Below, piece by piece: positions 1,325-30,903 of a stretch of DNA of 64,000 nucleotides. The stretch covers positions 325,322-389,321 of the forward strand of contig JANQPV010000022.1 in NCBI GenBank assembly GCA_028285305.1. Reading direction: 5' to 3'. Below the pieces are notes generated by a model. That model saw nothing but the letters and a program-made list of their open reading frames with translations. It was not told the DNA's origin and made no database searches. This stretch comes from Alphaproteobacteria bacterium (lineage in GTDB: Bacteria > Pseudomonadota > Alphaproteobacteria > SMXP01). The stretch's first letter is position 1. Each line of letters starts with the position of its first letter. A program made the translations under genes and the position numbers.

Positions 1325-1338
1325 GTGGGTTTCGAAAT

Positions 1339-2337: not shown

Positions 2338-2413
2338 GCTCAACACTTATAGTGCCGGTCAAATTACATCGCGCGCTCGGATCGCCGCAGTTGAAGACGG
2401 GTGGCTGAGTGAT

Positions 2414-3091: not shown

Positions 3092-3092
3092 T

Positions 3093-4925: not shown

Positions 4926-4949
4926 CATCTTGGCTGGGCGCCTTTGGTG

Positions 4950-7310: not shown

Positions 7311-7444
7311 GTTCCGGCCTTGGGTCTCTTTGAACAGTGAAGTCTGGTATCGATTACGGATATGAAAGTAGTTTTCCTTTCATTGATCTGTAGGCAGTTC
7401 TTTTCCTGTCTTCAGATGTGAGTTTCGTTAGTTTTCAAGGGACA

Positions 7445-8140: not shown

Positions 8141-8378
8141 ATTGTTTCCATACTATCTTCGGCGATTTCGAAAGCGTTTGCGAGGCGGTGTCATGTCGGC
8201 ACGTCATTTCGATCGGCCTTCGAAGGAACTGTGGGGGTGAGAGCTTGGTTCCCGTAAGGCCAGTCCGGGTTTCGCTCGTCAGGAGACTCCTCCTCAGATC
8301 TTTTCCTGCTTGTCGCTTGGAAGCTTGGTCTAGCGCTTGCTTTGATTGATGTGCGCGTTTGTACATGAGATCTGAAGT

Positions 8379-10124: not shown

Positions 10125-10203
10125 TGACTATACGAACGTATTGGTTGTTCAAAGTGTCACCGAAGTAAAGGCTTTAAGTTGAGATCAGCCTATATGCTTT
10201 TGG

Positions 10204-11490: not shown

Positions 11491-11532
11491 CCTTCGGTTA
11501 ACCTCTGGACAAATTCGAGTTAGGGAAACGAA

Positions 11533-12609: not shown

Positions 12610-12649
12610 TTAAGGTAGGTTTGCCCTTCAGGTCTCAACTTAAAGCTAA

Positions 12650-14413: not shown

Positions 14414-14502
14414 TGGGAAGTCGATGTCGTTTGCCAATGTTCGCAGACACGTCTTGTTCGCAGTTTTCTGAGGTTCGCGAATTGGGGGTTCGTTAGGCTA
14501 GC

Positions 14503-15228: not shown

Positions 15229-16169
15229 ACCCTGCGCCGATTGCTCTTTTCGTTTATGCGCGTCCCGAACATACGCGCTCAGTTATTGAGGGATTGGCTA
15301 CAAATCCAATGTTCGGGGATAGTGATCTTTGGGTGTTTTCCGACGCACCAAAAGACAATCGGGATAGTGAGGCGGTGGAAAGCGTCCGCTCACTCATCAA
15401 ACAGGTGAGGGGTCCCCGTCGATTGGAGGTGGTCGAACAAAGTGAGAATTTGGGATTGTCGCGTTCGATCATTGATGGCGTTTCTCGCTTATGCGGCACT
15501 TATGGAAAATGCATCGTGCTTGAAGATGACATCGTGCCTACGCCATACTTTCTTGAGTATGTGAACGAGGCGCTCGAGCTCTACAAAGATGATGAGCAAG
15601 TGATGAGCATTGGTTGTTATTCGTTCAGCGATGGCCGCGCATTGCCGGATACCTTTTTTCTTCGTGTGCCGGATTGTTGGGGATGGGCCGTTTGGGCGCG
15701 AAGCTGGAGATTCTTTGAGGAGGATGGGCAGAAGTTATTGTACGAATTGGATCGTTTAGACCTAAAACAAGAAATTGATTTTGGTGGTGTGTACCCATAC
15801 TATCGAATGCTTGAGGATCATGCGAATGGGCTAAATGATTCGTGGGCAGTGAGATGGTATGCAGCGACGTTGCTTCGTAACGGTTTGGTTCTTTATCCAG
15901 GGATGTCGGTTACCGATAATGTCGGATTTGACAACACTGGAACGCATACCGGGAGTCACCGCGGTAAACCACCGAACACTCTTGCTCATCGAAGCATACC
16001 GGTCGTTGACATACCGGTCGAAGTATCTGAGCTGGGTACAGAAGTTTGGCGGAACGTGATGCGCAACATGCAACCGAACCTCGTTGAAGGGCTATTTGCC
16101 AGTATGCGGGAAAAGTTGGGACGGTTGCGTCGTCATGCTCGTGCGCGAACTACGGGGAGTCCCAACTAG
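15225..16169 (+). CDS. GT-A-fold glycosyltransferase (family 2-like)
   Basis: A 314-residue protein with a GT-A fold. It starts with PIALFVYARPEHT, continues with NLGLSRSIIDGV, and has the acidic metal-binding motif LEDDIVPTPYFL near residues 101-112. DCWGWAVWARSW in the middle is characteristic of a group of glycosyltransferases from bacterial surface-glycan clusters. It should transfer a sugar from a nucleotide donor in the cytoplasm. Start ATG 15225 overlaps the preceding FkbM stop by four bases. Donor and linkage are unknown. Confidence 0.75.
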   Translation: MNPAPIALFVYARPEHTRSVIEGLATNPMFGDSDLWVFSDAPKDNRDSEAVESVRSLIKQVRGPRRLEVVEQSENLGLSRSIIDGVSRLCGTYGKCIVLEDDIVPTPYFLEYVNEALELYKDDEQVMSIGCYSFSDGRALPDTFFLRVPDCWGWAVWARSWRFFEEDGQKLLYELDRLDLKQEIDFGGVYPYYRMLEDHANGLNDSWAVRWYAATLLRNGLVLYPGMSVTDNVGFDNTGTHTGSHRGKPPNTLAHRSIPVVDIPVEVSELGTEVWRNVMRNMQPNLVEGLFASMREKLGRLRRHARARTTGSPN

Positions 16170-16184
16170 TTTTGGTTTGAGCGG

Positions 16185-17114
16185 ATGAAGCTGCCGTTCC
16201 TCGATCGCCTTTATTCTGTTTGGCATCTCTTGCATGAATTGCGGGAGCAACTAGATTCGGTTCAGATGGCGCTTGGTCGGGTCGAAGCGCGTCAGACTGA
16301 AAATTTGTCTGCTGACGCATTACCTGAAGCGGAGTTTAAAGTCTATTCCCAATGGGGCGAAGATGGTCTGATTGAGCATATGCTCAGGCAAGTGCCTATC
16401 GACAGAAAGGTCTTCGTGGAGTTCGGCGTACAGGATTATCGTGAATCCAACACTCGATTCTTGCTTAAGCACCGGAATTGGTCCGGTCTTGTGCTGGATG
16501 GATCGCCCGATAATGTTCGCCGAATTAGAGAGGACGTCATCTATTGGCAGCATAATCTAAAGGCGGAATGCGCCTTCGTTTCGCGCGAGAACATCAATAA
16601 GCTGATAAGCGCTCACGGTATAGAGGGCGATATCGGTCTCTTATCGATCGATATTGACGGCAATGATTATTGGGTGTGGCAGGCGATCAACGTGATCTCT
16701 CCCCGCATTGTCATCGTCGAATATAACGCCTTGTTCGGACCGGAGGCGCCTGTTTCGATCCCTTATGATGAAACATTTGTTCGTTCACGGGCTCATTATT
16801 CTAATCTCTATTGGGGGTGTTCGTTGGCAGCTCTTAATCACATGGCTGCAGAGAAGGGTTATGTGCTGGCCGGGTGCAACTCAAACGGAAACAATGCGTT
16901 CTTTGTTCGAAAAGACGTGTCGAAAGGTATCAGTGTAAAGACGGTGGAAGCTGCGTTCCGCAGGTCTTTGTTTCGCGAATCGCGAAACCAAAGCGGGGAA
17001 CTGACCTATCTAAGCCCGGAACGGGCGCTCTTAGAAATTCAAGAGCAATCGGTCGTCCAAGTGCGGACTGGTGAGACTATGGCCGTAGGCGATGCAGTTG
17101 TTGATAGAATGTAG
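16185..17114 (+). CDS. FkbM-like methyltransferase with N-terminal coiled coil
   Basis: A 309-residue protein. Residues 1-40 are helical with heptad-like leucines (LLHELREQLDSVQMALGRVEA), a probable coiled coil. The core starts with FKVYSQWGEDGLIEHML and FVEFGVQDYRESNTRFLL, then LLSIDIDGNDYWVW and IVIVEYNALFG. These are features of an FkbM-like branch in which the SAM glycine loop is EFGVxDxxESNT. It is the third FkbM-type gene of the cluster and differs clearly from the other two. It follows the GT2-like gene by 15 bases, so it is part of the same transcription unit. Confidence 0.75.
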   Translation: MKLPFLDRLYSVWHLLHELREQLDSVQMALGRVEARQTENLSADALPEAEFKVYSQWGEDGLIEHMLRQVPIDRKVFVEFGVQDYRESNTRFLLKHRNWSGLVLDGSPDNVRRIREDVIYWQHNLKAECAFVSRENINKLISAHGIEGDIGLLSIDIDGNDYWVWQAINVISPRIVIVEYNALFGPEAPVSIPYDETFVRSRAHYSNLYWGCSLAALNHMAAEKGYVLAGCNSNGNNAFFVRKDVSKGISVKTVEAAFRRSLFRESRNQSGELTYLSPERALLEIQEQSVVQVRTGETMAVGDAVVDRM

Positions 17115-17149
17115 TTGCCGGTATTAGCGATAGGTGTAAAAGAAAATTC

Positions 17150-17851
17150 ATGAGAGAACGTTTGAGCAATTTAGCCACAGCTATCTGTCCGCCGATTTTG
17201 CTTCCTCCTGTGAAAGCAATATACAGAGTAATTAGTGGTCGTGCGCAAGTGATTATTGATCCGCACTCGCAGGACCTTGATGTCTATTGGACAGATGAAA
17301 TGCAGCAAGTCCTTGAGACTTGGGGGGAAGGAAATGTTTGGAGCGAGATCCAACTCGCGATGGCCGGTCGAAAAGGAAAAGCGTTAGATATAGCGTGCGG
17401 CACGGGAAAGGTGACTTCGCTTCTTCAATATAACAAGGACTTGGAGATCTGGGGCGTAGATATTTCGGACAAGTTCATCGACAAGGCTGCCCAGCGTGGT
17501 CTTGATCAGAGCCGATTGTTTATCGGCGATGCTTTGGATCTACCTTTTGAAGACAACTTCTTTGACTACTCATACTCGATTGGTTCGATTGAACATTTTA
17601 CTGAGGATGGCATTGCTACTTTTCTCAAAGAGAGTGATCGAGTGACCAATTCGACTTCTTTTCACATGCACCCGGTTTCGAAGTCCGGAGAAAATGAAGG
17701 CTGGATCAAGACTGTCCAAAGTTATTTCAATAATTCTGTAGATTGGTGGCTTCCGAAGTATCGTGAGGCTTTCTCTTCGGTTGTCGTACTAGACTCTCTG
17801 TGGGAAGATCACCGGTCGAAGGGTAAATGGTTTGTTTGCAGTAACCTTTAG
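17150..17851 (+). CDS. class I SAM-dependent methyltransferase
   Basis: A 233-residue methyltransferase with motif I LDIACGTGKVTSLL (about residues 79-92), GVDISDKFIDKA for the adenosine-binding strand, and DLPFEDNFFDYSYSIGSIEHF, which matches the motif II/III region of Methyltransf_11 proteins. It probably methylates a sugar or glycan intermediate. The stop is three bases from the GTG start of the next methyltransferase, so the two are likely translated as a pair. Nothing in the sequence fixes the acceptor. Confidence 0.78.
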   Translation: MRERLSNLATAICPPILLPPVKAIYRVISGRAQVIIDPHSQDLDVYWTDEMQQVLETWGEGNVWSEIQLAMAGRKGKALDIACGTGKVTSLLQYNKDLEIWGVDISDKFIDKAAQRGLDQSRLFIGDALDLPFEDNFFDYSYSIGSIEHFTEDGIATFLKESDRVTNSTSFHMHPVSKSGENEGWIKTVQSYFNNSVDWWLPKYREAFSSVVVLDSLWEDHRSKGKWFVCSNL

Positions 17852-17854
17852 TCT

Positions 17855-18688
17855 GTGATACCTCACTTCTTGAAAAGCTGGATTCCACCTGCCGCGTATG
17901 CGAGTGTCGAAAGGCTGCGAAGAGGACGATCCGGGCTTGGGAATCTCATTGGCAGTTGGCAACAGGCGCGCGAAGATGGGTCTAGTTATGCTGCAGATGA
18001 GATTTTGCACTCAGTCGACCAAGCGGTGCAGCGAGCGATGGCTAGCGGAGTCCAAGATAGAGACGGATCCCTTGTCAGCAACTCGGCTGCTCCAGGCGCG
18101 CTTATTGCGACTTTGCTTCAACAAGCCCTCAAAACTAATTCTAGAGGACGGCTTTCCGTACTCGATTTTGGCGGTGCTCTTGGCTCTTCCTATCGACTAG
18201 CCAAGCCTTGGATGGAGCCCTTGGATAGTCTGACCTGGCATATTGTTGAGCAGCCGGGGTTTGTTGAAACGGGCCGAAGGAGTTATGAATCAGATGAGCT
18301 GCGCTTTTTCGCCTCAATGGAGGAAGCGGCAACAGCGTCTACACCGGACATCATCCTATTTTCGGGCGTGCTCCAGTACCTCGACAACCCCTATGAAATT
18401 CTGGAAAGAGCCAAAAAACTTGGTGCAGAAACGGTTTTTGTGGATCGCAATCCAAAAAGTGAAGTGATCGAGGACAAGTATACTCTACAATATGTTCCAG
18501 GAGGGACATTCACAGCGCGCTTGCCTTTTCGCATATTTGGAAAACAAAAGCTGGAGGAAGCTTTGTCTCCGGAGTACATTCTGCGGGGAAATTTTGCTAG
18601 CGTTGATCCAGATATGACTGCGGGCGGAATGCCCGTTTCGTTTCTGGGTTCGTTGTTTACCGCAAGCGACGGCCCGCAGCAGCCGTAG
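17855..18688 (+). CDS. TIGR04325-type methyltransferase
   Basis: A 277-residue protein resembling the TIGR04325 methyltransferase family of surface-polysaccharide loci. It has SVLDFGGALGSSY (about residues 105-117, replacing the usual G-x-G-x-G), WHIVEQPGFVETG, then DIILFSGVLQYLDNPYEIL and ETVFVDRNP. The SSY after the glycine loop and the VEQ-x-x-x-V-E stretch are family hallmarks. The start is GTG 17855, three bases after the previous stop. The enzyme probably modifies a glycan intermediate; its reaction has not been inferred more closely. Confidence 0.8.
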   Translation: MIPHFLKSWIPPAAYASVERLRRGRSGLGNLIGSWQQAREDGSSYAADEILHSVDQAVQRAMASGVQDRDGSLVSNSAAPGALIATLLQQALKTNSRGRLSVLDFGGALGSSYRLAKPWMEPLDSLTWHIVEQPGFVETGRRSYESDELRFFASMEEAATASTPDIILFSGVLQYLDNPYEILERAKKLGAETVFVDRNPKSEVIEDKYTLQYVPGGTFTARLPFRIFGKQKLEEALSPEYILRGNFASVDPDMTAGGMPVSFLGSLFTASDGPQQP

Positions 18689-18728
18689 AACAAATAGGCT
18701 ATCGCATTCAGGATAAGAATTGGAAAGC

Positions 18729-19139
18729 ATGGCATACGAAGTAATTGAAGAAGATGGCGTGCGTTACGCCGAAATCATTTGGGCCAACACGGAAGTTGAA
18801 ATCACCAAGTTTTATTCGCCTGCGGAATCGTCGCTGCAATTCGGATTGCTAGCACATGAAGCGGGTTTCGTGGAGCCGCCGCACTATCATCACCCTGTTA
18901 AGCGTGAAATCAACGACCTTCAACAGATGTTGGTCGTTCAACGCGGTGTCGTTGCAATTGACTTCTTTCGTCCGGATGGGTCAAGACTGCGTGAGGTGGT
19001 GCTAAAGGTTGGTGACGCGATCAATTTGATTGACGGCGTTCATTCCGTGCGCGTCATAGAGGACATGCAGTGCGTTTCCGTCAAGCAGGGCCCGTTCTTG
19101 GGGGATAAATTGGACAAAGTTAATGTCGACACAAAATAG
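18729..19139 (+). CDS. cupin-like protein
   Basis: A 136-residue single-domain cupin. The first cupin motif carries histidines in PPHYHHPVK (near residues 54-62) followed by MLVVQRGVVAIDFF, and the second motif has GDAINLIDGVHSV. It is too unlike FdtA-type sugar 3,4-ketoisomerases in sequence to be called one, although its size is similar. ATG 18729 is preferred; TTG 18720 in frame is possible. Its 3' end overlaps the aminotransferase gene by 17 bases. A role in preparing or epimerising the nucleotide sugar used by that enzyme is a reasonable inference, not something shown. Confidence 0.65.
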   Translation: MAYEVIEEDGVRYAEIIWANTEVEITKFYSPAESSLQFGLLAHEAGFVEPPHYHHPVKREINDLQQMLVVQRGVVAIDFFRPDGSRLREVVLKVGDAINLIDGVHSVRVIEDMQCVSVKQGPFLGDKLDKVNVDTK

Positions 19140-20247
19140 AATTCCCGTTCACGAGCCAGAAATCGGTGAAGAAGAGATCGAAGCGGTTGTTGCGGCTCTT
19201 CGGCGTGGAGAGATCTCCGGTACTTTCGGGCAGGCTCTTCCGGAGTTTGAAGAAAAGTTCGCGGCCTATTGCGGCTGCAAACACGGGATTGCGGTCACAA
19301 ACGGAACTACCGCTCTTCAGATGGCAGTCACCGCAGCCGGTGTCGGTGCGGGCGATGAGGTCCTGATGAGTGCGTCCACGAATATCGCGACTGCGCTGGC
19401 CGCTTACTACAACAACGCGGTACCGGTGCCGGTTGACTCGGAACCTGTAACCTGGAATTTGGATCCCAGCTTGATCGAAGAATTGATCACACCTCGAACA
19501 AAAGCGATCATCCCGGTTCATTTGTTTGGCCATCCCTGCGCTATGGATCAAATCATGGAGATTGCCACCAAATATGGTCTCGCAGTGATAGAGGATTGCG
19601 CTGAATCCCATGGTGCAACGCTGAATGATCAGATGACGGGTAGTTTTGGCGGCATGGGATGTTTTAGCTTTTACGCCAACAAAGTGATTACGACTGGCGA
19701 GGGCGGAATGGTTACGACCAATGACGACCGTTTGGCTGAGAAGCTCAGGTCCTTGCGCAATCTCTGTTTTGGTCAACCGCGATTTGTTCATCAGGAAGCG
19801 GGCTATAACTTCAGAATGACAGGCTATCAAGCGGCGATGGGATTAGCTCAGCTCGGGAAAATTGAGCAGATCATTGAGCAAAAACGGCGTATTGCGCAAA
19901 CATACAATACTTATCTGAACGACGTTCCTGGTGTCCAAACGCCGGCTGAACTGCCCGGTGTTCGGAATGTTTATTGGATGTATGCGGTTTCCATTGAACC
20001 GGAGTTTGGGAGAAGCCGTGATGAATTGGCGGACATTTTGCGGGAGCAGGGTATCGACACCCGAACATTCTTCTGTCCCATGGGGCAACAGCCCTTCCTT
20101 CAGGAGCAAGCTGGGTATCGTGATATCCCTTGCCCAGTAGCGGATCATCTTTGGGAAAGCGGCTTTTATCTGCCATCGGCCAATTCCTTGGACGAAGGGT
20201 CGATTAGACGCATTTGCGATGCCATCCGCGATGCGGGGCGTTTTTAG
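19123..20247 (+). CDS. DegT/DnrJ/EryC1/StrS aminotransferase, perosamine-synthase-like
   Basis: A 374-residue PLP-dependent sugar aminotransferase. Lys187 in SFYANKVITTGEGGM is the expected Schiff-base residue; TNGTTALQMAV and VIEDCAESHGA hold the phosphate-binding and ring-stacking positions. The sequence around the lysine and PVHEPEIGEEE at the start resemble GDP-perosamine synthases, which put an amino group at C4 of a 4-keto-6-deoxy sugar. This suggests an amino-dideoxy sugar in the glycan. The 4,6-dehydratase needed to make its substrate is not in the window. Confidence 0.85.
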   Translation: MSTQNRIPVHEPEIGEEEIEAVVAALRRGEISGTFGQALPEFEEKFAAYCGCKHGIAVTNGTTALQMAVTAAGVGAGDEVLMSASTNIATALAAYYNNAVPVPVDSEPVTWNLDPSLIEELITPRTKAIIPVHLFGHPCAMDQIMEIATKYGLAVIEDCAESHGATLNDQMTGSFGGMGCFSFYANKVITTGEGGMVTTNDDRLAEKLRSLRNLCFGQPRFVHQEAGYNFRMTGYQAAMGLAQLGKIEQIIEQKRRIAQTYNTYLNDVPGVQTPAELPGVRNVYWMYAVSIEPEFGRSRDELADILREQGIDTRTFFCPMGQQPFLQEQAGYRDIPCPVADHLWESGFYLPSANSLDEGSIRRICDAIRDAGRF

Positions 20248-20265
20248 GCCGAACATCTCCTTTTC

Positions 20266-21486
20266 GTGAAGATTGCCGCATATGTAGCCGGGTATGCGCC
20301 TGACGCCGGAGGAGGATATACGTTTGAGAACGATGTCCTGAACGGCTTGTTGGCGCGCCTGAGGTCCGGTGATCCCCATGACTTTTGTATAATGTGCCCG
20401 GCCAGCAGCGAGCCCTCTCTGCGTGCGCATATCGCGCCGTTTGAGATAGAGGTTCTTCCTATCCCGGAGGGGCGCTTGCGGAGCATGGGAACGGCCTTAC
20501 TCCGTGACAGCGATTTCTTGCGCTCGCATTGGCGGCGGCCTTATGCGCTGGATCGCGTCGCAGATAAGGGGCGGGTGGATTTCATTTGGTTCCTTGGAGC
20601 TGGAGTTCACCTGACAAATCGTCCGTATGCTACAATCGTTTGGGATATCCAGCATCTGAACACGCCGTGGTTCCCTGAAATGAGCGGAAATGGACTTTGG
20701 GATGGCCGCGAAATGTCACACAATTGGTTTTTGCGCCGCGCCTCTGTCGTGGTGACGGGCACAAGACGCGGCCAACACGAACTGAATAGTCTCTATCACA
20801 TCCCAATTGAACGGTTACCAATCTTGCCGCACCCCACGCCTCAATTTGCCTTGGATGCCGGCGTGCCCGAAAAGAGCCGTTCCATCGTTGACGGCTTGGG
20901 TTTGACTAGGCCTTATGTTCTGTATCCCGCTCAATTTTGGCCTCACAAAAACCATGTCAATTTAATCGAGTCGCTTGCCCGTTTGAAGCGGGACAAGGGT
21001 GTCGCTATGGATTTGGCGCTTGTCGGTTCCGACAAAGGCAATCGCGGTTTTTTGGAGGCGGTGGCAGACCGTCTAGGTGTGAGGGATGCGATTCACTTCT
21101 TGGGGTTCGTTGACCGAAGCGATCTTATTGCTCTTTACCAGGAAGCTGTGGCGCTTACCTATGCTTCATGGTGTGGGCCGGAGAACTTGCCTCCACTGGA
21201 AGCGTTTGCGTTGGGATGTCCTGTGGTGGCAACGGACATTCCGGGAGCCCAGGAACAACTCGGCGATGCTGCTATACTGGTCGATCCGGCGAATCCGAGC
21301 GCGATTGCGGATGGAATTCTCAAGGTTCATCAGGATCCAAGGCTGCGCGAGGGCCTAATTGAAAAAGGCCATGTTCGCGCGCGAAAATGGACGCCTACGG
21401 AGTATGTGAACGGATTCCTCGATCATGTGGAAAAATTCGAGCCGATCCTAAAATGTTGGAATGCATCACCTCAGAGAGAGGGATGA
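20266..21486 (+). CDS. GT4-type (GT-B) glycosyltransferase
   Basis: A 406-residue retaining glycosyltransferase. The C-terminal domain has PAQFWPHKNHVNLIESLARL and the donor-site motif GPENLPPLEAFALGCPVVATDIPGAQ with the E-x7-E pattern of family 4. It would transfer a sugar from a nucleotide donor to the growing lipid-linked glycan on the cytoplasmic face. The start is GTG 20266, giving the normal beginning MKIAAYVAGYAPDAGGGYTF. Its stop overlaps the next GT2 gene start in ATGA. Confidence 0.85.
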   Translation: MKIAAYVAGYAPDAGGGYTFENDVLNGLLARLRSGDPHDFCIMCPASSEPSLRAHIAPFEIEVLPIPEGRLRSMGTALLRDSDFLRSHWRRPYALDRVADKGRVDFIWFLGAGVHLTNRPYATIVWDIQHLNTPWFPEMSGNGLWDGREMSHNWFLRRASVVVTGTRRGQHELNSLYHIPIERLPILPHPTPQFALDAGVPEKSRSIVDGLGLTRPYVLYPAQFWPHKNHVNLIESLARLKRDKGVAMDLALVGSDKGNRGFLEAVADRLGVRDAIHFLGFVDRSDLIALYQEAVALTYASWCGPENLPPLEAFALGCPVVATDIPGAQEQLGDAAILVDPANPSAIADGILKVHQDPRLREGLIEKGHVRARKWTPTEYVNGFLDHVEKFEPILKCWNASPQREG

Positions 21487-22346
21487 AAACACACGAACAG
21501 AATTCGCTGTCGATATCCGTCGTCACGCCCAATTACAATATGGGTGACTATCTGAGCGACACCATTGTGTCCGTTCTTGGCAATCTTAAGAGTTGCGATG
21601 AGTACTTTGTCATTGATGGGGGTTCGAGCGACAATAGCAGGGAGGTGATCAAGAGGTTCGACGGCCAATTGACCGATTGGGTCAGTGAACCGGACCGGGG
21701 CTATGCGGATGCGATCGCGAAAGGCTTTGCGGCGGCGAGCGGAGACATACTGTGCTGGGTTAATAGTGGTGATTTGCTGCTGTCGGGAGCGCTCGACAAC
21801 GTCCGATCCGCATTTGCATCGCATGACGCGGAGCTGTTGTTTGGGGATGATTTCTATATTGACGAAGAAAGCCGCGTGATCCGCTATAGTCGGGGCTTCG
21901 CGCCTGATCTGAAGCGTGCGATGTTATTGGGATCATGGACCCCGCTACAGGATGCTTGTTATTGGAGGCGATCTGCATACGAGCAAGTTGGTGGTATTGA
22001 TCCGACGATCAGCTCAGCCGCCGATTATGACCTCTTCTTGCGCTTGGCTGTGCGATGTCGTTCGGCCTATATACCGATCGCTTTCAGTGCCTTTCGGCGG
22101 CACCCAGGCCAAAAATCTATTTCCGACACAGGTACCTATGCGTCTGAAAAAGAAAGAATCCGGCGGCGGGAGTTGGCGGCTGCGGGTTGTGGTTCCTCAC
22201 GAGTGCGTTCTGTCTTCCCGCGGCTCATGACGAGCCTGCGCAGCCGTTTCGCGGCGCGTCTTTGGGTCCGACGCGATCTGATTGGCCGACCAATCGGTGA
22301 GTTGCCATCAGGCCGGTATTGGCCACCCTCGATTTCCCTTGAGTAG
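21483..22346 (+). CDS. family 2 glycosyltransferase
   Basis: A 287-residue GT-A glycosyltransferase with SISVVTPNYNMGDYLSDTI, FVIDGGSSDNSREVI, EPDRGYADAIAKGF and the loop CWVNSGD in place of the usual DxD. These features match a GT2 group in which N-x-G-D replaces DAD. ATG 21483 is the start, overlapping the previous stop in ATGA and preceded by a purine-rich GAGAGAGGG; longer in-frame starts run into the GT4 gene and are rejected. About 70 residues after the catalytic core are basic and helical. Confidence 0.84.
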   Translation: MKTHEQNSLSISVVTPNYNMGDYLSDTIVSVLGNLKSCDEYFVIDGGSSDNSREVIKRFDGQLTDWVSEPDRGYADAIAKGFAAASGDILCWVNSGDLLLSGALDNVRSAFASHDAELLFGDDFYIDEESRVIRYSRGFAPDLKRAMLLGSWTPLQDACYWRRSAYEQVGGIDPTISSAADYDLFLRLAVRCRSAYIPIAFSAFRRHPGQKSISDTGTYASEKERIRRRELAAAGCGSSRVRSVFPRLMTSLRSRFAARLWVRRDLIGRPIGELPSGRYWPPSISLE

Positions 22347-22365
22347 GGTGGCGTCCGCCGTAAGC

Positions 22366-23109
22366 ATGCGAAGTCTCGCTAAACGCTGGCTTTTGCCCTT
22401 CCTAGATCCGCGACGCTTGCTGCTCATTTTTCGTGTGCCGCGTTTTTGGGCCGAACTGCGGACTTACAAGTGTCGTTCCTCGTCTGAGCAGGTGTTACTC
22501 GCAGACACGTATCCCTGCCTGACAGATCGGACGTCAACTACACCCTTTGACCCTCACTATTTCTACCAAGGGGCTTGGATTGCCCGAAAGCTCGCTGGCT
22601 CCAACCCTACGCGGCATGTCGATGTTGGCTCCAGCGTTTTGACCATCAGCGTTTTGTCCGGCCATGTGCCCACGATATTTCTTGACTATCGTCCGCTTGC
22701 TGTCGGGTTGCCTGGGTTGGGCAGTATTGCCGCCAGTGTTTCCGGTCTTCCGTTTGCGGATGGCAGTATTTCCTCGCTGTCGTGTCTTCATGTGATTGAG
22801 CATATAGGGCTTGGGCGATACGGTGACCCGATTGACCCGGATGGAACTTTTAGGGCGCTGGATGAATTGCAAAGGGTGACATCTCGCGGGGGGCGTTTGT
22901 ATTTGAGCGTGCCCGTTGGTCGGGAGCGGGTTTGCTTTAACGCGCACCGGGTGCTTTGCCCTGACACGGTCCTGCAGCGGTTAAACGCTATGGAACTCAT
23001 CAGTTTTTCGCTTGTCGATGATGAGGGCCGTTATCATCCCGACTGCGATGTCAGCTGCGCCGGTCAACTGGACTATGGCTGCGGCTTGTTTGAATTGAGC
23101 AAACACTAA
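22366..23109 (+). CDS. DUF268-type putative methyltransferase
   Basis: A 247-residue protein of the DUF268 group. It has RHVDVGSSVLTISVLSG as a modified SAM glycine motif, then FLDYRPL, SGLPFADGSISSLSCLHVIEHIGLGRYGDPIDPDG and GGRLYLSVPVGRERVCFNAHRV. The HVIEHIGLGRYGDP segment is diagnostic for this group, which is related to class I methyltransferases and common in polysaccharide loci. Start is uncertain: GTG 22348, one base after the previous stop, is in frame and adds six residues; I used ATG 22366. Function beyond probable methyl transfer is unknown. Confidence 0.75.
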   Translation: MRSLAKRWLLPFLDPRRLLLIFRVPRFWAELRTYKCRSSSEQVLLADTYPCLTDRTSTTPFDPHYFYQGAWIARKLAGSNPTRHVDVGSSVLTISVLSGHVPTIFLDYRPLAVGLPGLGSIAASVSGLPFADGSISSLSCLHVIEHIGLGRYGDPIDPDGTFRALDELQRVTSRGGRLYLSVPVGRERVCFNAHRVLCPDTVLQRLNAMELISFSLVDDEGRYHPDCDVSCAGQLDYGCGLFELSKH

Positions 23110-23120
23110 CGTCGACCTGC

Positions 23121-23846
23121 ATGTTGGATCGCCTTAAGCACAGTGATCTGTTTGCTTACAACCTCTATCAGCGGGACAAGTGGGTTAGGGCACAAGCAAG
23201 TACAATTGAAAACGATGCGCGGGTTCTCGATGCGGGAGCAGGGTCATCGCCTTACCGTGCAATGTTCAATCATTGCATTTATGAAACACAAGATTTTACT
23301 CAGCTGAAGGATGATCAATTGCGCCATGGTGGATACGGTGCAATTGACTACGTTTGCGACATTGCTGAAATTCCGGTTGAGGACGGTAAGTTCGATGCGA
23401 TTCTTTGCACTGAAGTGCTGGAGCATCATCCGGACCCGGTTCGTGTTGTAAATGAATTCGCGAGAATTTTGGCACCAGGCGGTGTGCTCCTGTTGACGGC
23501 GCCGTTGGGTTCGGGAATTCATCAAGAGCCTTACCATTACTACGGCGGCTTTACGCCTTATTGGTACCAGCGTTTCTTGACTGAGGCCGGATTCGTTGAC
23601 CTTGAAATCGAAGCCAATGCGGGCAGCTTCCGCCAATTCTCTCAAGAAGCGATCCGCTTTGTGCAGATGACTCGCCCGTTTGGCGGGACGCTGCCCTTTG
23701 GACCTTCTCTTGTTTGGGCGCCCTTTTGGATTTTACTATTGCCAGTTCTTGCCGGGCTGGTGCCGATTGCGGCGAAACGGCTCGACGCTTACGACACGGA
23801 ACAGCGGTTTACTGTCGGATATCATGTGCGCGCCGTGCGTCACTGA
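23121..23846 (+). CDS. class I SAM-dependent methyltransferase
   Basis: A 241-residue methyltransferase with VLDAGAGSSPYRAMF (about residues 35-49), then DIAEIPVEDGKFDAILCTEVLEHHPDPVRVVNEFARILAPGG, the strand-4 to helix-E region of Methyltransf_11 proteins. A hydrophobic stretch near the C-terminus (LVWAPFWILLLPVLAGLVPIAA) is probably a membrane anchor or reentrant helix, so the enzyme may sit at the inner membrane near the lipid-linked glycan. It is 11 bases after the DUF268 gene. Confidence 0.8.
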   Translation: MLDRLKHSDLFAYNLYQRDKWVRAQASTIENDARVLDAGAGSSPYRAMFNHCIYETQDFTQLKDDQLRHGGYGAIDYVCDIAEIPVEDGKFDAILCTEVLEHHPDPVRVVNEFARILAPGGVLLLTAPLGSGIHQEPYHYYGGFTPYWYQRFLTEAGFVDLEIEANAGSFRQFSQEAIRFVQMTRPFGGTLPFGPSLVWAPFWILLLPVLAGLVPIAAKRLDAYDTEQRFTVGYHVRAVRH

Positions 23847-23866
23847 GCGTTTCTAGTGAACAGACG

Positions 23867-25090
23867 ATGAGGGTTCTTTGTGTCTTCGGTCGGTATGCCT
23901 ACGGAGAGGTTGAGAGAGGCGAAGCCTATGAGTATGCGAACTTTCTTCCTGCGCTCGAGAATATCTCGACAGAAGTTTCCCTCTTCGATTCTTTCTCTCG
24001 GGATATGTATGCGGACTTTGCGGAACTCAATCTCGCATTTCTGGAGACGGTTGATCGCTTCAAGCCGGACCTCGTCTTTGCCGTCTTGATGGGATATGAG
24101 ATCTGGACAGAAACGCTTGAAATATTGAGACAACGCACTTCAACGGCGTTCCTTAATTGGGGAACAGATGATTCTTGGAAGTTTGATCAATTCACGAAAT
24201 ATATCTCTCCCTATTTGGATTGCCATGCAACAACTTACCGCGCAGCGAAGAAACGGGCCGAGCAGTTAGCGCTTTCCAACGTTGTTCAGTCTCAGTGGGC
24301 GGCGTCATCAAGGACACTTGCAGAGCCTCTCTCGAGCGATCAATGCGAGTTCGACGTCAGCTTTGTAGGCACCGCTTACGGGAACCGGCGGCATTGGGTC
24401 GAGGCCTTGAAGGCGCGCGATATCAATGTGACCTGTTTTGGCCACGGTTGGGGCCGCACGCTTGAAAAGTCGAGCGACGTTCTGGATATCTACCGGCGGT
24501 CAAAGATCTCGCTGAACTTCGCTGACTCAGGGGTTCAACTCTCGAAGCGCGGGTTGCGGCGAAACCGTCAAATCAAGGCGCGCACATTCGAGGTTCCCGG
24601 TGCGGGTGGATTGTTGCTCACGGAACCGGCTGAGGACTTGGATCTGTATTTTAAGTTAGGTGAAGAAATCGATACATTTGCCGAAATCGACCAACTCGCC
24701 GATAAGATCGGGTTCTATCTGTCGAGGCCGGACCTTCGCGATCAGGTTGCCTGGAATGGTCAAAAACGCGTGTGTGCTGATCATACCTACGAGCAGCGGT
24801 TCCGGCCTCTCATAGACGCCGCGCTTCGCGCTCGTCGCGAACGCGGGGTTCAACACTGGTCGCTGCGGCCTCAAGCTGATCTTGCCCCATTTATCGAGAC
24901 ATATGCGGCAGGCGCGAAGGCCAAAGTTTTGAGGTATGCATTGTTGAAGATTGGAAGCCTGCTTTATGGAAGGGAGCGCGGCGCTCGTGCCGCGCGAAGG
25001 GCCGTTTATGAGGCCTACTGGCGCTTTCGTGGGGCGCGGACGTATTCGAGCGCAGGTCTTCCAGGACAATTGTTTTACAAAGAAAGCTAG
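23867..25090 (+). CDS. CgeB-like glycosyltransferase
   Basis: A 407-residue GT-B protein of the CgeB/YkvP type. The N-terminus is MRVLCVFGRYAYGEVERG, the middle has FLNWGTDDSWKFD and VSFVGTAYGNRRHWVEAL, and the C-terminal domain has KARTFEVPGAGGLLLTEPAEDLDLYF, a typical end for this group. I started it at ATG 23867 because the longer in-frame version overlaps the preceding methyltransferase by 133 bases and loses the clean first strand. It should act as a glycosyltransferase in the glycan locus; donor unknown. Confidence 0.82.
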   Translation: MRVLCVFGRYAYGEVERGEAYEYANFLPALENISTEVSLFDSFSRDMYADFAELNLAFLETVDRFKPDLVFAVLMGYEIWTETLEILRQRTSTAFLNWGTDDSWKFDQFTKYISPYLDCHATTYRAAKKRAEQLALSNVVQSQWAASSRTLAEPLSSDQCEFDVSFVGTAYGNRRHWVEALKARDINVTCFGHGWGRTLEKSSDVLDIYRRSKISLNFADSGVQLSKRGLRRNRQIKARTFEVPGAGGLLLTEPAEDLDLYFKLGEEIDTFAEIDQLADKIGFYLSRPDLRDQVAWNGQKRVCADHTYEQRFRPLIDAALRARRERGVQHWSLRPQADLAPFIETYAAGAKAKVLRYALLKIGSLLYGRERGARAARRAVYEAYWRFRGARTYSSAGLPGQLFYKES

Positions 25091-25096
25091 GTTGCA

Positions 25097-26035
25097 GTGG
25101 TGCCCAAGGTCAGCGTTGTTATGTCCGCGTACAATTGCGAACAAGAAATTGAACTGGCGGTCGCTTCGATTGTTGCTCAAACGTTTCAAGATTGGGAGCT
25201 TATAGCGATTGATGACGGATCGACCGATGGAACCCATGAAAGACTGGCCGGATTTCAGGATCAAAGAATTAGAGTTGTGCGTGAGAGAGAGCGCAAAGGT
25301 TTGGCGTACCGCCTGAACCAAGGGATTGCGATCGCGCGCGGCGCCTATGTCGGGCGGATGGACGCAGACGATATTTCGTATCCTGAGCGGCTGTCCAAAC
25401 AGGTCGCATATCTCGATAAGTCGCCCGACACGGATTTGTTGGGTACCGCTGCATTTGCTTTTGAACCCGGGTTTCGCGCAATCGGTGTATGTGATGTTGA
25501 ACCCTCACATGAAGGGGTTTGTGCGAACCCGGCATCCGGGTTTCGGATGCCGCATCCTTCGTGGATGGGAAAACGGAATTGGTTCGAAAAACATCCTTAC
25601 CGCACAGATGCGAAACGCGCTCAAGATCAAGACCTGTTGGTTCGTACATTTCGCTCCAGCCGCTTTGCCAATCTTGAGGAGATCCTCATCGGCTACCGGC
25701 AAAGTCTTCCCAAGATCAATCACATTCTAATGGGGCGTTGGTCTTATGGACGGGCGTGTTGGCGCTACAATCAGAATCTTGGCGGGCGTTTCCCGGCTCT
25801 TTTGGGCGTTTCCGAGCAGGTGGTTCGGTCAATGGTTACTGTACCGCTTATTGTCTTCGGCCAAGCTGATTGGGTTTTGCGTCGCCGGTTTCGAACGGCG
25901 ACCTCTGCGGAGAAGGAGCAGTTCAACCAAGTGTGCGGCTCTCTGTCGGCGATCGATTGCTTCCGAAGCGTTCGCCAAGAAAACGGGTCTGAGCTGCAGG
26001 CCCAATCCGATTCGCCCAATTTGGGTCCGCTCTAG
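25097..26035 (+). CDS. family 2 glycosyltransferase
   Basis: A 312-residue GT-A enzyme. VSVVMSAYNCEQEIELAV, LIAIDDGSTDGT and the metal-binding YVGRMDADDISYPERL form a complete GT2 catalytic core. Later, FRMPHPSWMGKRNWF and DQDLLVRTF are typical of the acceptor side. Tandem GTG codons at 25097 and 25100 are both possible starts. It follows the CgeB-like gene by six bases and precedes the second asnB homologue, so it belongs to the same operon. Confidence 0.86.
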   Translation: MVPKVSVVMSAYNCEQEIELAVASIVAQTFQDWELIAIDDGSTDGTHERLAGFQDQRIRVVRERERKGLAYRLNQGIAIARGAYVGRMDADDISYPERLSKQVAYLDKSPDTDLLGTAAFAFEPGFRAIGVCDVEPSHEGVCANPASGFRMPHPSWMGKRNWFEKHPYRTDAKRAQDQDLLVRTFRSSRFANLEEILIGYRQSLPKINHILMGRWSYGRACWRYNQNLGGRFPALLGVSEQVVRSMVTVPLIVFGQADWVLRRRFRTATSAEKEQFNQVCGSLSAIDCFRSVRQENGSELQAQSDSPNLGPL

Positions 26036-26050
26036 GCAGAAACGCAGACT

Positions 26051-28024
26051 ATGTGCGGAATAGCCGGCTTCTTGCGCTCCGATCCTGGCGCTGAGGACAC
26101 CATGTCCCGAGTCGTTACCGCCATGTCGGACACTTTGATTCATCGAGGGCCGGATTCGTCCGGTCTCTGGTGCGACGGGGCAGCAGGCATTGCTTTGGGA
26201 CATCGCCGCCTGTCGATTGTGGATCTCTCCGAACTTGGACATCAGCCCATGGTGTCAAGCAGTGGGCGGATGGTCATTTCCTATAATGGCGAGGTCTATA
26301 ATTTTAAGGAAATCCGATCCGAACTTACACAGGCGGGCATTGCGGTTCGCGGGGGCTCGGACACGGAAGTGATTCTTGAGGCGTGTGATCACTGGGGTGT
26401 TGAGCAAACGGTGTCCAGACTCATCGGTATGTTTGCAATCGCACTATGGGATCGTGATACGAGAACATTGTCCTTGGTGCGTGACCGGCTTGGCATAAAG
26501 CCTCTCTATTTTGCATATGAGCCAGGCTTCTTTCTCTTTGGCTCCCAGCCCCAGGCCCTCCTTCGCTATCCGGATTATCGTGCTGAAATCGATCCGTCTG
26601 CAGTTGCATCCTATGTGCGCTTTTCGAACGTTCCGGGTCAGTACGCAATCTACCAGAACATGCGCAAAGTGGAGCCCGGGCATATTCTCACGATTCAATC
26701 AGATTTATCGGTTGCCGATGATGCCTATTGGTCGATGGATGACGTAGTACGTCGAGGTCGTAATGCGCCTATTGACCAGGATGACACGCAAGCCGTTGAA
26801 GCGTTGGATGGTCTCCTCCGCGATTCGGTCAGGCGCCGCTTGGTGGCGGATGTCCCATTGGGCGCATTCCTTTCGGGCGGCGTTGATTCCTCCACCGTTG
26901 TCGCGCTCATGCAGGCTCAGTCCGAGCGGCCGGTCAAGAGCTTTTCAATCGGCTTTCAGGAGGATGCCTACAACGAGGCCCAGCATGCCAAAGCCGTAGC
27001 ACAGCATCTTGGTACGGATCACACCGAGCTGTATGTCGATGCTCATCAGGCGCGTGACGTCATTCCGAAACTGCCTTTGATGTTTGATGAACCTTTCGCT
27101 GATGCCTCTCAGATTCCCACCTTTTTGGTTTCTGAACTCACACGAAAGCATGTGACGGTTTCTCTGTCCGGCGACGGCGGTGATGAGCTTTTTGCCGGAT
27201 ATAATCGCCACATGATGGCATCGCGTATGTTACCGGCTATCTTCAATGTACCTGGGATTGCGCGGCGCTTCTTGGTGGCAATGTGCCGGGCGATCAGTCC
27301 AGCGCGATGGACCCAGTTTTCTCACCTTCTTCCGTCCAATGTGCGTCCCCAGTTGTTTGGTGATAAGCTGTATAAGTTCTCCGATGTCATTTCCGGCAAT
27401 CAGCAGCAGGCATACAATCGACTCGTCAGCCTTTGGTCGAATCCTGCCGAGATTGTGGCCGATGCGGAGCAGCATCAAACGATGCTCGATGAAACAGCGC
27501 ACTTGCGCGGCGCCGCAAGTCTGGTCGAATGGATGCAGTTTTTGGACACCAAAACATATCTCCCAGATGATATCTTGACCAAAGTTGATCGTGCGAGCAT
27601 GGCGGTCAGCTTAGAGGCGCGGGTTCCGATTCTCGATCACCGGGTCGTCGAGTTCGCTTGGCGCCTGCCTGTGCGGTTCAAGTTGCGCGGCGGCCAGAGC
27701 AAATGGCTGCTACGCCAGGTGCTTTATCGGTATGTCCCAAAAGACATTATCGAACGACCTAAGATGGGCTTCGGCGTGCCCATTGATGACTGGTTGCGTG
27801 GCCCCTTGAGGGAATGGGCAGACGACCTGATTAGTGAGAAGAGATTGAAGGAGGAGGGCTGGTTTCAGTCTGGGCCCGTTCGCCAGCGCTGGCAAGAGCA
27901 CTTGTCTGGTGACCGGAACTGGCAATATTCGCTTTGGACAATTTTGATGTTCCAAGCGTGGTTAGATGCGCAGAGATATTCGGTCTCGAGGGAACCATCT
28001 GCTCAGGGACAATTATGTGCGTAA
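26051..28024 (+). CDS. AsnB-type glutamine-hydrolysing asparagine synthase family protein
   Basis: A 657-residue protein starting MCGIAGFLRSD with the catalytic Cys2 intact. Glutaminase residues (HRRLSIVDL, YNGEVYNF, SDTEV), PP-loop LSGGVDSST (near residue 278) and SLSGDGGDELFAGYNRH are all present. It is longer than the first AsnB homologue of this window and closer to the common exopolysaccharide-locus form. It may amidate a uronic acid or other carboxyl of the glycan, or simply make asparagine. The next gene begins ten bases before its stop, showing coupling with a GT4. Confidence 0.86.
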   Translation: MCGIAGFLRSDPGAEDTMSRVVTAMSDTLIHRGPDSSGLWCDGAAGIALGHRRLSIVDLSELGHQPMVSSSGRMVISYNGEVYNFKEIRSELTQAGIAVRGGSDTEVILEACDHWGVEQTVSRLIGMFAIALWDRDTRTLSLVRDRLGIKPLYFAYEPGFFLFGSQPQALLRYPDYRAEIDPSAVASYVRFSNVPGQYAIYQNMRKVEPGHILTIQSDLSVADDAYWSMDDVVRRGRNAPIDQDDTQAVEALDGLLRDSVRRRLVADVPLGAFLSGGVDSSTVVALMQAQSERPVKSFSIGFQEDAYNEAQHAKAVAQHLGTDHTELYVDAHQARDVIPKLPLMFDEPFADASQIPTFLVSELTRKHVTVSLSGDGGDELFAGYNRHMMASRMLPAIFNVPGIARRFLVAMCRAISPARWTQFSHLLPSNVRPQLFGDKLYKFSDVISGNQQQAYNRLVSLWSNPAEIVADAEQHQTMLDETAHLRGAASLVEWMQFLDTKTYLPDDILTKVDRASMAVSLEARVPILDHRVVEFAWRLPVRFKLRGGQSKWLLRQVLYRYVPKDIIERPKMGFGVPIDDWLRGPLREWADDLISEKRLKEEGWFQSGPVRQRWQEHLSGDRNWQYSLWTILMFQAWLDAQRYSVSREPSAQGQLCA

Positions 28025-29202
28025 TGGATTCTGCATCTGACCTCGCTCTTGACCAACCCGGTGCCGATCGGCGCGGTAGAATCTTGTTTCTCGTGACCGA
28101 AGATTGGTATTTCTGGTCCCATCGTGTGCGGTTGGCAAAGGCGCTGACGAACGCGGGCTTTGACGTGCATGTGGCTACTCGCGTCCAAGATCATCTGACG
28201 AAATTGGAGGAGCTTGGCTTGACCGTTCATGCTCTCGGTTGGCAGAGAGGCAAGTCAAATCCCGTCCAAGAACTCCGCGCGCTTATCAAAATCACCCAGC
28301 TGCTCAGAGACGTTAAACCGGACATCCTTCATCTGGTCGCCTTGAAGCCGATTCTTTTCGGTAATATTGCTAATAAGATCATCCGAAAGAGCCGGGTGGT
28401 GAATGCTGTTTCGGGCCTTGGAGCAAGTTTCATCGGAAACTCGCGCCACGCTAGACTATTGCGCCGGCTCGTTGAGCTCGGTTTTTCGAGATTGCTCCGT
28501 CATCCCCGAGATGTAGTGGTCGTTCAGAATGAAGATGACGCGGACTATTTCCAAAAATCTGGTTTCGTTCGCTCCGGTCAGGTTCGATTGGTTCGTGGGT
28601 CGGGAATTGATCTTGACCGGTTTCAATATGTGCCAGAGCCGCCGGACAATAATGGGGTGGTCGTTAGCATCGTATCGAGAATGCTATGGACCAAGGGGAT
28701 CGGTGAATCGGTGGAGGCCGTTCGTCGGCTTCACGAGGCAGGCCGAAATGTCGAGCTGCGCTTGATTGGAAGCCCAGATGAAACAAATCTCGACTCAATT
28801 CCTCAGAGCACCCTTGAGAAGTGGAATAAAGAGCCGTTCATCCAATGGCAAGGTCCACGCAGTGACATACCTCGCGTTTGGCAAGACAGTCATATTGCTT
28901 TGTTGCCTTCATACCGGGAAGGATTGCCGCTCAGCCTCATAGAAGCGGCAGCCTGTGGCCGTCCGCTGGTCTCGACAAATGTACCGGGATGCCGAGAAAT
29001 TGTTCGCCCCAATGTCAATGGTCTTATGGCGGAATTGGGCAATGTCAGTGAGCTTGCCAATTCAATTGAGACCTTGGTGGTGAACAAAGAACAGCGCCAG
29101 GAGTTTGGGCGAGCGGCTCGTATTGATGCGGAGAAATTCTACTCAGAATCGACAATCTTTGGTGAATTCTTCGATTTGTACGGGGAGCTATTGCGACAAT
29201 AG
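28015..29202 (+). CDS. GT4-type glycosyltransferase, last gene of the glycan locus
   Basis: A 395-residue GT-B glycosyltransferase. After about 22 extra residues it shows ILFLVTEDWYFWSHRVRLAKAL, ILHLVALKPILFGNIA, SRMLWTKGIGESVEAVRRL, and the donor motif LPSYREGLPLSLIEAAACGRPLVSTN. The pattern resembles transferases acting early on lipid-linked sugars (PglA/WbpH-like). ATG 28015 has AGGGA five bases upstream and is chosen over further upstream in-frame codons and over ATG 28024. The gene faces the convergent nusG paralogue 68 bases away; I see no clear intrinsic terminator between them. Confidence 0.84.
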   Translation: MCVMDSASDLALDQPGADRRGRILFLVTEDWYFWSHRVRLAKALTNAGFDVHVATRVQDHLTKLEELGLTVHALGWQRGKSNPVQELRALIKITQLLRDVKPDILHLVALKPILFGNIANKIIRKSRVVNAVSGLGASFIGNSRHARLLRRLVELGFSRLLRHPRDVVVVQNEDDADYFQKSGFVRSGQVRLVRGSGIDLDRFQYVPEPPDNNGVVVSIVSRMLWTKGIGESVEAVRRLHEAGRNVELRLIGSPDETNLDSIPQSTLEKWNKEPFIQWQGPRSDIPRVWQDSHIALLPSYREGLPLSLIEAAACGRPLVSTNVPGCREIVRPNVNGLMAELGNVSELANSIETLVVNKEQRQEFGRAARIDAEKFYSESTIFGEFFDLYGELLRQ

Positions 29203-29270: not shown

Positions 29271-29774
29271 CTAAAGCGTAGCGGGCAGGACATCTCGTCT
29301 TGGAACCGTCGCCATCACGTTTCCACCTAAGACTTCGATCAATAGTTTCACTCTGTCTTTCGGGAGCATCTTGCGAACCAGTGCGATGCTATCCACGAAC
29401 GGTCCTGCTACAAACTTGACCCTCTGGCCCGGACGAACGTCAAAGGTACTGTAAACGGTTTCAGTCTCTTCCGCGTCTACAAGTCTAATCGACTCTTCAA
29501 ACTCCATTGGCAGGAACTTTGGCAGTTTGCCGTCGGTGATTAGGTACTTAACTCCATAGGTGTTGTTTATCGGCGCCCAATCATCCTTAGCTGGATCGAT
29601 TTCGACGAATAGATATCCTGGGAACAAAGGTTCGAAAATTGTGTCGATGCGCCGGGCGCGACGTCGGGCGCGTTTCGTCTTCGGCAGCCACGGTATGAAG
29701 CCTTGACGCTTAAGGTTCAGTTCCGCTCTTGATTCTTGGTGCGGACGAGTGTGAACAACGCCTAACTTCTTCAC
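29271..29774 (-). CDS. NusG/RfaH-family transcription antitermination protein
   Basis: A 167-residue NusG paralogue. The NGN domain (residues 1-105) starts GVVHTRPHQESRAELNLKRQGF and has EPLFPGYLFVEID (about 48-60), the usual RNA-polymerase-binding face. A KOW-like domain follows with RPGQRVKFVAGPFVDSIALV (about 113-132). Length and the missing acidic insert fit RfaH/LoaP-like specialised factors that help polymerase read long polysaccharide operons, rather than housekeeping NusG. It starts at GTG 29774, overlapping the stop of the upstream winged-helix gene by four bases (GTGA). The obvious candidate target is the 29-kb glycan locus that converges on it. Confidence 0.85.
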   Translation of the reverse strand: MKKLGVVHTRPHQESRAELNLKRQGFIPWLPKTKRARRRARRIDTIFEPLFPGYLFVEIDPAKDDWAPINNTYGVKYLITDGKLPKFLPMEFEESIRLVDAEETETVYSTFDVRPGQRVKFVAGPFVDSIALVRKMLPKDRVKLLIEVLGGNVMATVPRRDVLPATL

Positions 29775-30424
29775 TTCGTCTTCCCCTTGGGCGCAACATG
29801 TGGAGGAGAGAAGTCAAGTGGTGAGCTCGTTATGCACAAAAATGCTGGTGCTGCGATATGATGGTTAGGATATTTCTCTCGCAGCTGATCATAAATCGAC
29901 TGAGGATGACGCGACTCTGCGATCACCAGCGTATCGTGTGGCTCAATTCCGCCGGTCTTGCTAACGATCGGCACGCCAAATAGTGTCGTAGACGACGCTT
30001 CGCCCTGAAAATCCACGCCTCTAATCTCAACGCCTACTTCGTGTGCGGACCAAATGGCAATCTCTACGAGTTCCCCTTGGCCAACGAGGACAAAACTCTG
30101 CCGGTTGGCTGCCGTTTCAGATTCGAACAGCTGTGTATACTCCTGCCGTGCGGATCGAAAGAAATCGAGTGATGTTTCTAAGTATTGGGCAACGAGCCTG
30201 GACTTCTCATTGAAGCCTTTTGGCGTCAAGTAGTAAGCGTACCGTTTATAGGGCGCCGCTTTCGCCTTCACGTAGCCTTTCTTGATGGCCCGCTTTAACA
30301 TTGCGTTGACAAGCCCGACGGAAACCGAAAAACGCTTGGCCAACGACATCTGCGTGACGACTTCGCGCCTCTCCAACTCGGAGAGAAAATTCAATTCGGT
30401 TTCGACCTTTGCCCGATCAGACAT
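29771..30424 (-). CDS. EPS-associated MarR-type winged-helix regulator with Rossmann-like C-terminal domain
   Basis: A 217-residue protein. Residues 1-90 resemble the MarR family EPS-associated regulators (TIGR04176-like): MSLAKRFSVSVGLVNAMLKRAIKKGYVKAK is the helix-turn-helix and RYAYYLTPKGFNEKSRLVAQYL the wing and following helix. Those proteins usually end soon after. Here residues 110-180 add a nucleotide-binding-like fold, beginning FVLVGQGELVEIA and including GVEIRGVDF and LFGVPIV, similar to PglD N-terminal or Rex-like domains. I infer a sensor that binds a nucleotide or nucleotide-sugar and controls transcription together with the overlapping NusG paralogue. Confidence 0.75.
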   Translation of the reverse strand: MSDRAKVETELNFLSELERREVVTQMSLAKRFSVSVGLVNAMLKRAIKKGYVKAKAAPYKRYAYYLTPKGFNEKSRLVAQYLETSLDFFRSARQEYTQLFESETAANRQSFVLVGQGELVEIAIWSAHEVGVEIRGVDFQGEASSTTLFGVPIVSKTGGIEPHDTLVIAESRHPQSIYDQLREKYPNHHIAAPAFLCITSSPLDFSPPHVAPKGKTK

Positions 30425-30903
30425 ATTTAACTGGTATTATGCACAATCTTTTAAGTCAAGGCCTGAATTTCAGGGCTTGAATTTCGTGTTTCAAGGAAGC
30501 GTTGGTCTCGTATGCAAGCGGGTCTGGTCTAAGATGAGCTTAATTGCATCACTGTGGACTGATGAGTTTGGGCGTCTTTTCACCCAGATGCCCGCCTGGC
30601 CTTTTCACACGATCCAGTGCGAGATTTTGACTGAATTTCAATTCAGCATCCGGTTCGTAAATCCAAGTATGATGAAATCTGCGTCGTCCCACGAGCTTTG
30701 CTCGATCAATGTCGCATCCTCTGCAGTTGACACCTGAAGGCCGACAAGTTGAGTGAAAAGCGCTGGAACGCATTGGGGGATAAGAGGGACATTTGAATTG
30801 TCGACCGTATCGATCTTATTGAACTCGAACTGGGTGCTGAATAATTCGTGTTTGGTGTACAGAATAGAGATTGTCCTATAGGGCCGGACCAAAGGAGAAC
30901 AAG
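30425..30903. other. 479-bp divergent intergenic region
   Basis: This is the only gap over 300 bases in the window. It lies between the winged-helix regulator (-) and the epimerase gene (+). The open frames through it lack ribosome-binding sites and recognisable protein features. It holds the TGAATTTCA repeats described separately, a TTGACT box for the - strand at 30454-30459, and the AAAGGAG ribosome-binding site of the epimerase at 30891-30897. The part from about 30650 to 30890 is either a long untranslated leader of the epimerase gene or simply spacer; no clear promoter is visible there. Confidence 0.6.
30462..30646. promoter_or_regulatory. repeated TGAATTTCA palindromes, candidate operator sites
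   Basis: Site 1 (30462-30474) is a perfect inverted repeat, CCTGAA-T-TTCAGG. Site 2 (30478-30485) repeats TGAATTTC in direct orientation 14 bases further. Site 3 (30631-30646) is CTGAAT-TTCA-ATTCAG, again a perfect inverted repeat and again containing CTGAATTTCA. Site 1 lies three bases from a TTGACT -35-like box on the regulator's own strand. A winged-helix dimer binding such sites would be able to control both its own operon and the divergent epimerase gene. Binding is inferred only. Confidence 0.45.

Follow-up and report, generated by a model that had tools for sequence, protein, structure and literature searches.

Two overlapping genes of an alphaproteobacterial genome, encoding a MarR_EPS-like regulator with a Rossmann-like C-terminal domain and an RfaH-like NusG paralogue, are likely to form a two-gene module that combines MarR-type control of initiation with ops-dependent control of elongation of a long surface-glycan operon and that is gated by a ligand, which is probably a nucleotide. 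The pair lies in a stretch of 64,000 nucleotides, hereafter called the window. The evidence comes from the architecture of the regulator, its linkage to the NusG paralogue, two cis elements and their placement at the operon of the window, and the predicted fold of the C-terminal domain.

The gene pair and its distribution

The regulator gene (29771..30424, minus strand) has an ATG start and encodes 217 aa, and the gene of the NusG paralogue (29271..29774, minus strand; 167 aa) has a GTG start that overlaps the regulator stop, the two reading frames sharing the 4 bp GTGA. A first-pass annotation had placed both open reading frames correctly, without giving a strand, and the overlap that it reported is confirmed in the sequence. 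It had also described an operon ending 68 bases away; this gap between the end of the NusG paralogue gene and the last operon gene (which ends at 29202, plus strand) is right, but pair and operon are convergent. Since the pair cannot read into the operon, any control of the operon would have to act in trans.

The winged-helix part of the regulator, including a long helix (30128..30403, minus strand; residues 8-99), is defined by the structural model and by a match to the MarR_EPS model TIGR04176 (E 2e-15, 56.7 bits, under the curated cut-off of 88). The protein resembles this family in its winged helix, its glycan-locus context and the operator GTTCA-N5-TGAAC, which is also present upstream of bona fide members, but the family model has only 105 positions, whereas the regulator continues for approximately 100 further residues, which include the Rossmann-like domain. 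The recognition helix reads SVGLVNAML in the clade of the window and ALGLTNAYL in most relatives. Single-sequence searches of the PDB with the regulator gave no significant match. Other arrangements of the winged helix were also observed: in one alphaproteobacterial family (f23; L018, L313-L323), a MarR_EPS winged helix is fused N-terminally to a bifunctional ATP-sulfurylase/APS kinase of approximately 700 aa, and in three loci (L123-L125) a short MarR_EPS gene is divergent from a NusG paralogue and overlaps a following gene of ~330 aa, the palindrome being absent.

The second protein matches the NusG family PF02357 (E 1.6e-15) and is nearest to RfaH (TIGR01955, 98.3 bits, E 4.4e-28, under the curated cut-off of 144.5); its score against UpxY (NF033644) is 62.5 bits, under the cut-off of 100. 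In an ungapped reading of the residues with which RfaH contacts ops, R23 (and Q24) is kept and K10, H20 and R73 are replaced by R, N and Y, respectively, with two of the four direct contacts (R10 for K10, and R23) being alike by charge. The C-terminal domain of free RfaH is an alpha-hairpin and autoinhibited. In the AlphaFold2 model of the paralogue, the KOW domain is a beta-barrel, which is still compatible with a second fold; with this prediction and with ops contacts that are partly kept, RfaH-type autoinhibition is not indicated. Thus, the protein is similar to RfaH in being a NusG paralogue with a presumed glycan operon target and the ops core GCGGTAGC in the leader, but differs in its apparent co-translation with a putative DNA-binding regulator, in the three substitutions and in its score below the cut-off. 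The UpxY/UpxZ system of Bacteroides also comprises a NusG paralogue encoded with its glycan operon and an adjacent regulatory partner; in that system, however, the partner UpxZ acts by interfering with other operons, and it has not been described as a protein of the MarR-Rossmann type. An RfaH cluster (CL4) associated with an HTH regulator has been reported by Wang et al. 2020 (PMC7593976), in the main text of which the cluster is described with neither a sensor domain nor an operator nor a placement of ops. The earlier view of the pair as an undescribed system therefore holds for these three features, as far as that main text goes, but probably not for the association itself.

A search with the whole regulator gave a match in 19 of 96 relatives, and a profile search covering genomes of the class gave one in 93 of 385, approximately 76 of which have the long two-domain form. 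The suspected association between the fused regulator and NusG paralogues at glycan loci proved to be strong: a NusG paralogue is located within 60 bp downstream of the two-domain regulator in 61 of the 72 fetched loci, with frames that mostly overlap or abut, and the same order was replicated in a second collection (61 of 63 new loci). This recurrence exceeds chance. A scan of a named collection yielded 492 relatives; the best 80 belong mostly to Rhodospirillales-like and other alphaproteobacterial metagenome bins and include one cultured strain, Hwanghaeella grinnelliae Gri0909. Genes flanking the loci of relatives encode nucleotide-sugar epimerases, aminotransferases and polysaccharide synthases, and a UDP-sugar dehydrogenase is the upstream neighbour in 11 of 57.

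The operator palindrome and the ops element

An unbiased search of 73 upstream regions revealed the palindrome GTTCA-N5-TGAAC ahead of the pair in 55 of the 73 loci, as compared with at most three in shuffles and with 2 of 544 other genes of the same loci, and the finding was replicated in 58 of 62 new loci. Two copies approximately 23 bp apart usually follow TTGAC in relatives, the first filling the -35/-10 spacer, and this location between a -35-like TTGAC and the -10 region in most relatives points to repression. Among 17 short MarR_EPS genes that score over the TIGR04176 cut-off, 14 have the palindrome upstream as well; many of these short genes (L295-L311) belong to other classes of the phylum and most have no NusG neighbour in the DNA fetched, so that the palindrome can be assigned to the winged helix. 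Counted over whole genomes, the palindrome shows no clear excess in carriers of the pair over 20 genomes that lack the pair, and therefore only its placement is informative.

A clade variant of the operator, ATTCA-N5-TGAAT, occurs in loci L102 and L121, and the operator of the window is likewise a variant, of degenerate form. Its repeats, ATTCAAGCCCTGAAA and ATTCAGGCCTTGACT (30454..30482, minus strand), have a 14-bp period, and the last of them runs into the -35-like hexamer TTGACT; TAATAC at 30434..30439 (minus strand) is read from the sequence as a possible -10 element of the promoter of the pair, although the spacing is short. One TTCA-N5-TGAA per 64 kb is no more than expected by chance, and the weight given to the operator of the window comes from its position and from a parallel array at the operon rather than from its count. 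These repeats are upstream of or overlap the -35 element and are thus outside the spacer, so that in this clade activation is as possible as repression.

The second element, GCGGTAGC, corresponds to the core of ops12 from E. coli, GGCGGTAGCGTG (PMC5995543), which the sites match at 8-12 of 12 positions. It occurs 33 times between genes in 72 loci, where shuffled 8-mers average 2.85 occurrences, and follows the NusG gene in 22 of 63 loci but other genes in only 4 of 658; in a second set it was found after the NusG gene in 27 of 58 loci. Most sites are located 20-110 bp ahead of the gene that follows the NusG paralogue, those of some loci being elsewhere, and in 39 of 61 loci no GCGGTAGC was found within 250 bp after the NusG gene. 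No other word was enriched after NusG in loci without it, except GCGGCAGC in three (L112, L116 and L117), where this possible ops variant takes the corresponding place behind the NusG paralogue.

Both elements also occur together at a distance from the pair. Among the operator sites remote from the pair that were examined in 20 genomes, six have an ops core 66-244 bp downstream, with both elements on one strand. The genes that follow encode a DegT aminotransferase, a Polysacc_synt_2 enzyme (three sites), a cytidylyltransferase and a protein without a Pfam match, i.e., a recognised glycan gene at five of the six sites, and these sites look like target operons in trans. A looser composite pattern, TGAAC-N80..110-GCGGTAGC, was also searched in 50 genomes and was discarded, as its occurrences were mostly due to chance and the reversed control was commoner.

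The presumed target operon

The part of the presumed target operon that is within the window (311..29202, plus strand) consists of glycan genes, including those for NeuB, a DegT aminotransferase, glycosyltransferases, methyltransferases, an ABC transporter and glutamine amidotransferases. Six more plus-strand genes are present upstream of the window, reaching as far as the UDP-sugar dehydrogenase gene at position 319679 of contig C5 of this genome (G000:C5:319679), where the operon starts. With these six genes the operon is approximately 35 kb long, instead of the 29 kb first assumed, and begins 5.6 kb before the window. Several of its long open reading frames (4944-6083, 8379-10124, 10204-11490, 15225-17114 and 17855-18688) gave no match to Pfam at a threshold of E 1e-5. 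On the other side, the pair is adjoined by a gene for a TPR protein that contains an OGT-like domain of glycosyl transferase family 41 (32484-34571).

For the genome to which the window belongs, the regulon was derived from pattern searches together with the 117 kb around the pair. Tandem ATTCA-type repeats form a variant operator array before the operon (C5:319434-319479), followed on the operon's strand by the ops element GTGCGGTAGCCATG (C5:319586-319599), ahead of the UDP-sugar dehydrogenase gene. GTGCGGTAGCCATG at this site is unique in the genome, and GTGCGGTAGCNATG is unique in its 5.4 Mb. GCGGTAGC is absent from the window itself and occurs once in the 117 kb, 150 bp after the array and on the operon's strand. 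There are four occurrences of TTCA-N5-TGAA in the same 117 kb: two in the operon array, one at the promoter of the pair and one inside a gene. ATTCA-N5-TGAAT at C5:394891, considered as a further operator, was dropped because it is inside a gene.

The promoters of pair and operon have a common layout, in which tandem ATTCA-type repeats with a 14-bp period run with the last repeat into TTGACT, followed by N14 and TAATA. This common layout is the strongest evidence that the operon may be controlled by the pair. The first-pass annotation had suggested joint adjustment of initiation and elongation; the shared operator array and the ops element before the operon support this, but such control could be exerted in trans only.

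The C-terminal domain and the proposed mechanism

The C-terminal domain comprises approximately residues 108-197 (29834..30103, minus strand), and its designation as a Rossmann-like domain remotely related to PF13727 is derived from an AlphaFold2 model, structural matches and profile comparison. The model (pLDDT 85 on average) contains, besides the winged helix and a long helix, a confidently predicted Rossmann-like domain of beta-alpha type, which has the nucleotide-binding type of fold that had been anticipated. Foldseek alone gave no match to the model at E below 0.001. Structural matches of residues 107-200 include WbaP (8t53, Z 8.8 over 85 residues), 4m99 (Z 8.8), the Rex chain 3wg9 (Z 8.6), 3nkl (Z 8.0), which is labelled UDP-D-quinovosamine 4-dehydrogenase, and the PglB/PglD-type N-terminal domain of PglB acetyltransferase (Z ~8-9); values of 8-9 are close to the level reached by models without a clear match and are suggestive rather than decisive.

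In direct searches, neither PF13727 (CoA_binding_3, gathering cut-off 25 bits; E up to 10) nor PF17836 (PglD_N, 23.4 bits) matched the window protein, and each matched 2 of 68 relatives, PF13727 weakly (best E 0.032) and PglD_N with a best E of 0.0036; searches with a profile of the domain gave Rossmann matches that were weak at best. Comparison of the profile of 68 relatives by hhalign gave E 2.9e-7 for the FlaA1/CapD group and 2.1e-6 for the WbaP group of PF13727, versus 0.001 for PglD and 0.01-0.3 for eight unrelated control families. Profile and predicted fold together thus point to a remote homologue of PF13727 as the closest assignment. The likeness to PglD-N or Rex that had been noted earlier is sustained for the type of fold, but PF13727 comes ahead of PglD_N and nothing in particular favours NADH or Rex. 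The relatives WbaP and FlaA1/CapD-type dehydratases carry this domain on membrane glycan enzymes, whereas here it is found on a transcription regulator.

According to a single paper (PMC10942596), the PF13727 domain of WbaP is stabilised by UMP, UDP and UTP, and nucleotide sensing was proposed there. Considering this report and the proximity of PF13727, a sensor of a uridine nucleotide or nucleotide sugar is our best guess for the C-terminal domain. In the mechanism that we propose, the winged helix would bind the palindrome (GTTCA-N5-TGAAC in most relatives, ATTCA-N5-TGAA[AT] in the clade of the window) in its own promoter and in that of the target operon, and binding of a ligand, most likely a nucleotide or nucleotide sugar, by the Rossmann-like domain would alter this DNA binding. 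The co-translated RfaH-like protein would be loaded on RNA polymerase at GCGGTAGC in the operon leader and, once loaded, would prevent early termination. Opening of the promoter and the supply of antiterminator would thereby both track precursor availability. The more specific proposal that a sensor like that of the glycan-initiating enzyme WbaP, joined to a MarR winged helix, lets one uridine-nucleotide or nucleotide-sugar signal gate both promoter firing and ops-dependent completion, and does so widely in Alphaproteobacteria, is tentative, its chances being somewhat short of even.

Alternatively, the domain may bind no small-molecule ligand and serve only for dimerisation or protein contacts, in which case a constitutive autorepressor would set the antiterminator dose within the same DNA circuit. 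We regard this as quite possible but on balance doubtful. The same operator is kept by short MarR_EPS proteins that lack the domain, which implies that DNA binding is independent of it, and the homologous domain of WbaP mediates dimerisation as well (PMC10942596). However, the glycine-rich loop after the first strand is conserved, with G115 invariant in 16 sequences, and the domain is retained in many families of the class, as expected of a site under selection. It is also conceivable, although rather unlikely, that the regulator is an activator in the clade of the window and that the NusG paralogue mainly recruits ribosomes: the repeats at both the pair and the operon lie upstream of TTGACT and end at it, but in most relatives the palindromes occupy a repressor position between -35-like and -10-like elements. 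A Rex-like redox sensor of NADH/NAD+, with which the regulator shares a winged helix plus a Rossmann fold, appears very improbable; Rex domains match the C-terminal domain at Z 7.6-8.6 (7.8 for 3ket), but the profile is nearest to PF13727 and not to the tested Rossmann domains of the dehydrogenase type, the genes lie in a glycan-synthesis context, and the whole-chain rmsd on Rex is ~15 A, indicating a different domain arrangement in the model. That regulator and antiterminator are merely neighbours at a glycan locus is hardly credible: some loci have a single gene of the two, but the overlap is conserved, operator and ops occur at the same leaders, and distances in the trees of the two proteins show a correlation of r 0.75 (at most 0.38 in 2000 permutations), to which shared descent contributes.

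The preferred reading of a ligand-gated module acting on both initiation and elongation is built on known principles, namely MarR control and RfaH/ops; literature searches returned neither the fused protein nor its operator, nor these principles joined to a sensor domain and such cis elements. The MarR_EPS family, for which no DNA operator has been described in the literature searched, now has a candidate one, and loading sites that resemble the ops of E. coli are found before glycan operons across Alphaproteobacteria. Control of initiation and control of elongation would be linked at single leaders, and the exact sequences that can now be mutated may allow a direct test of whether glycan operons are tuned to nucleotide-sugar supply at the level of transcription.
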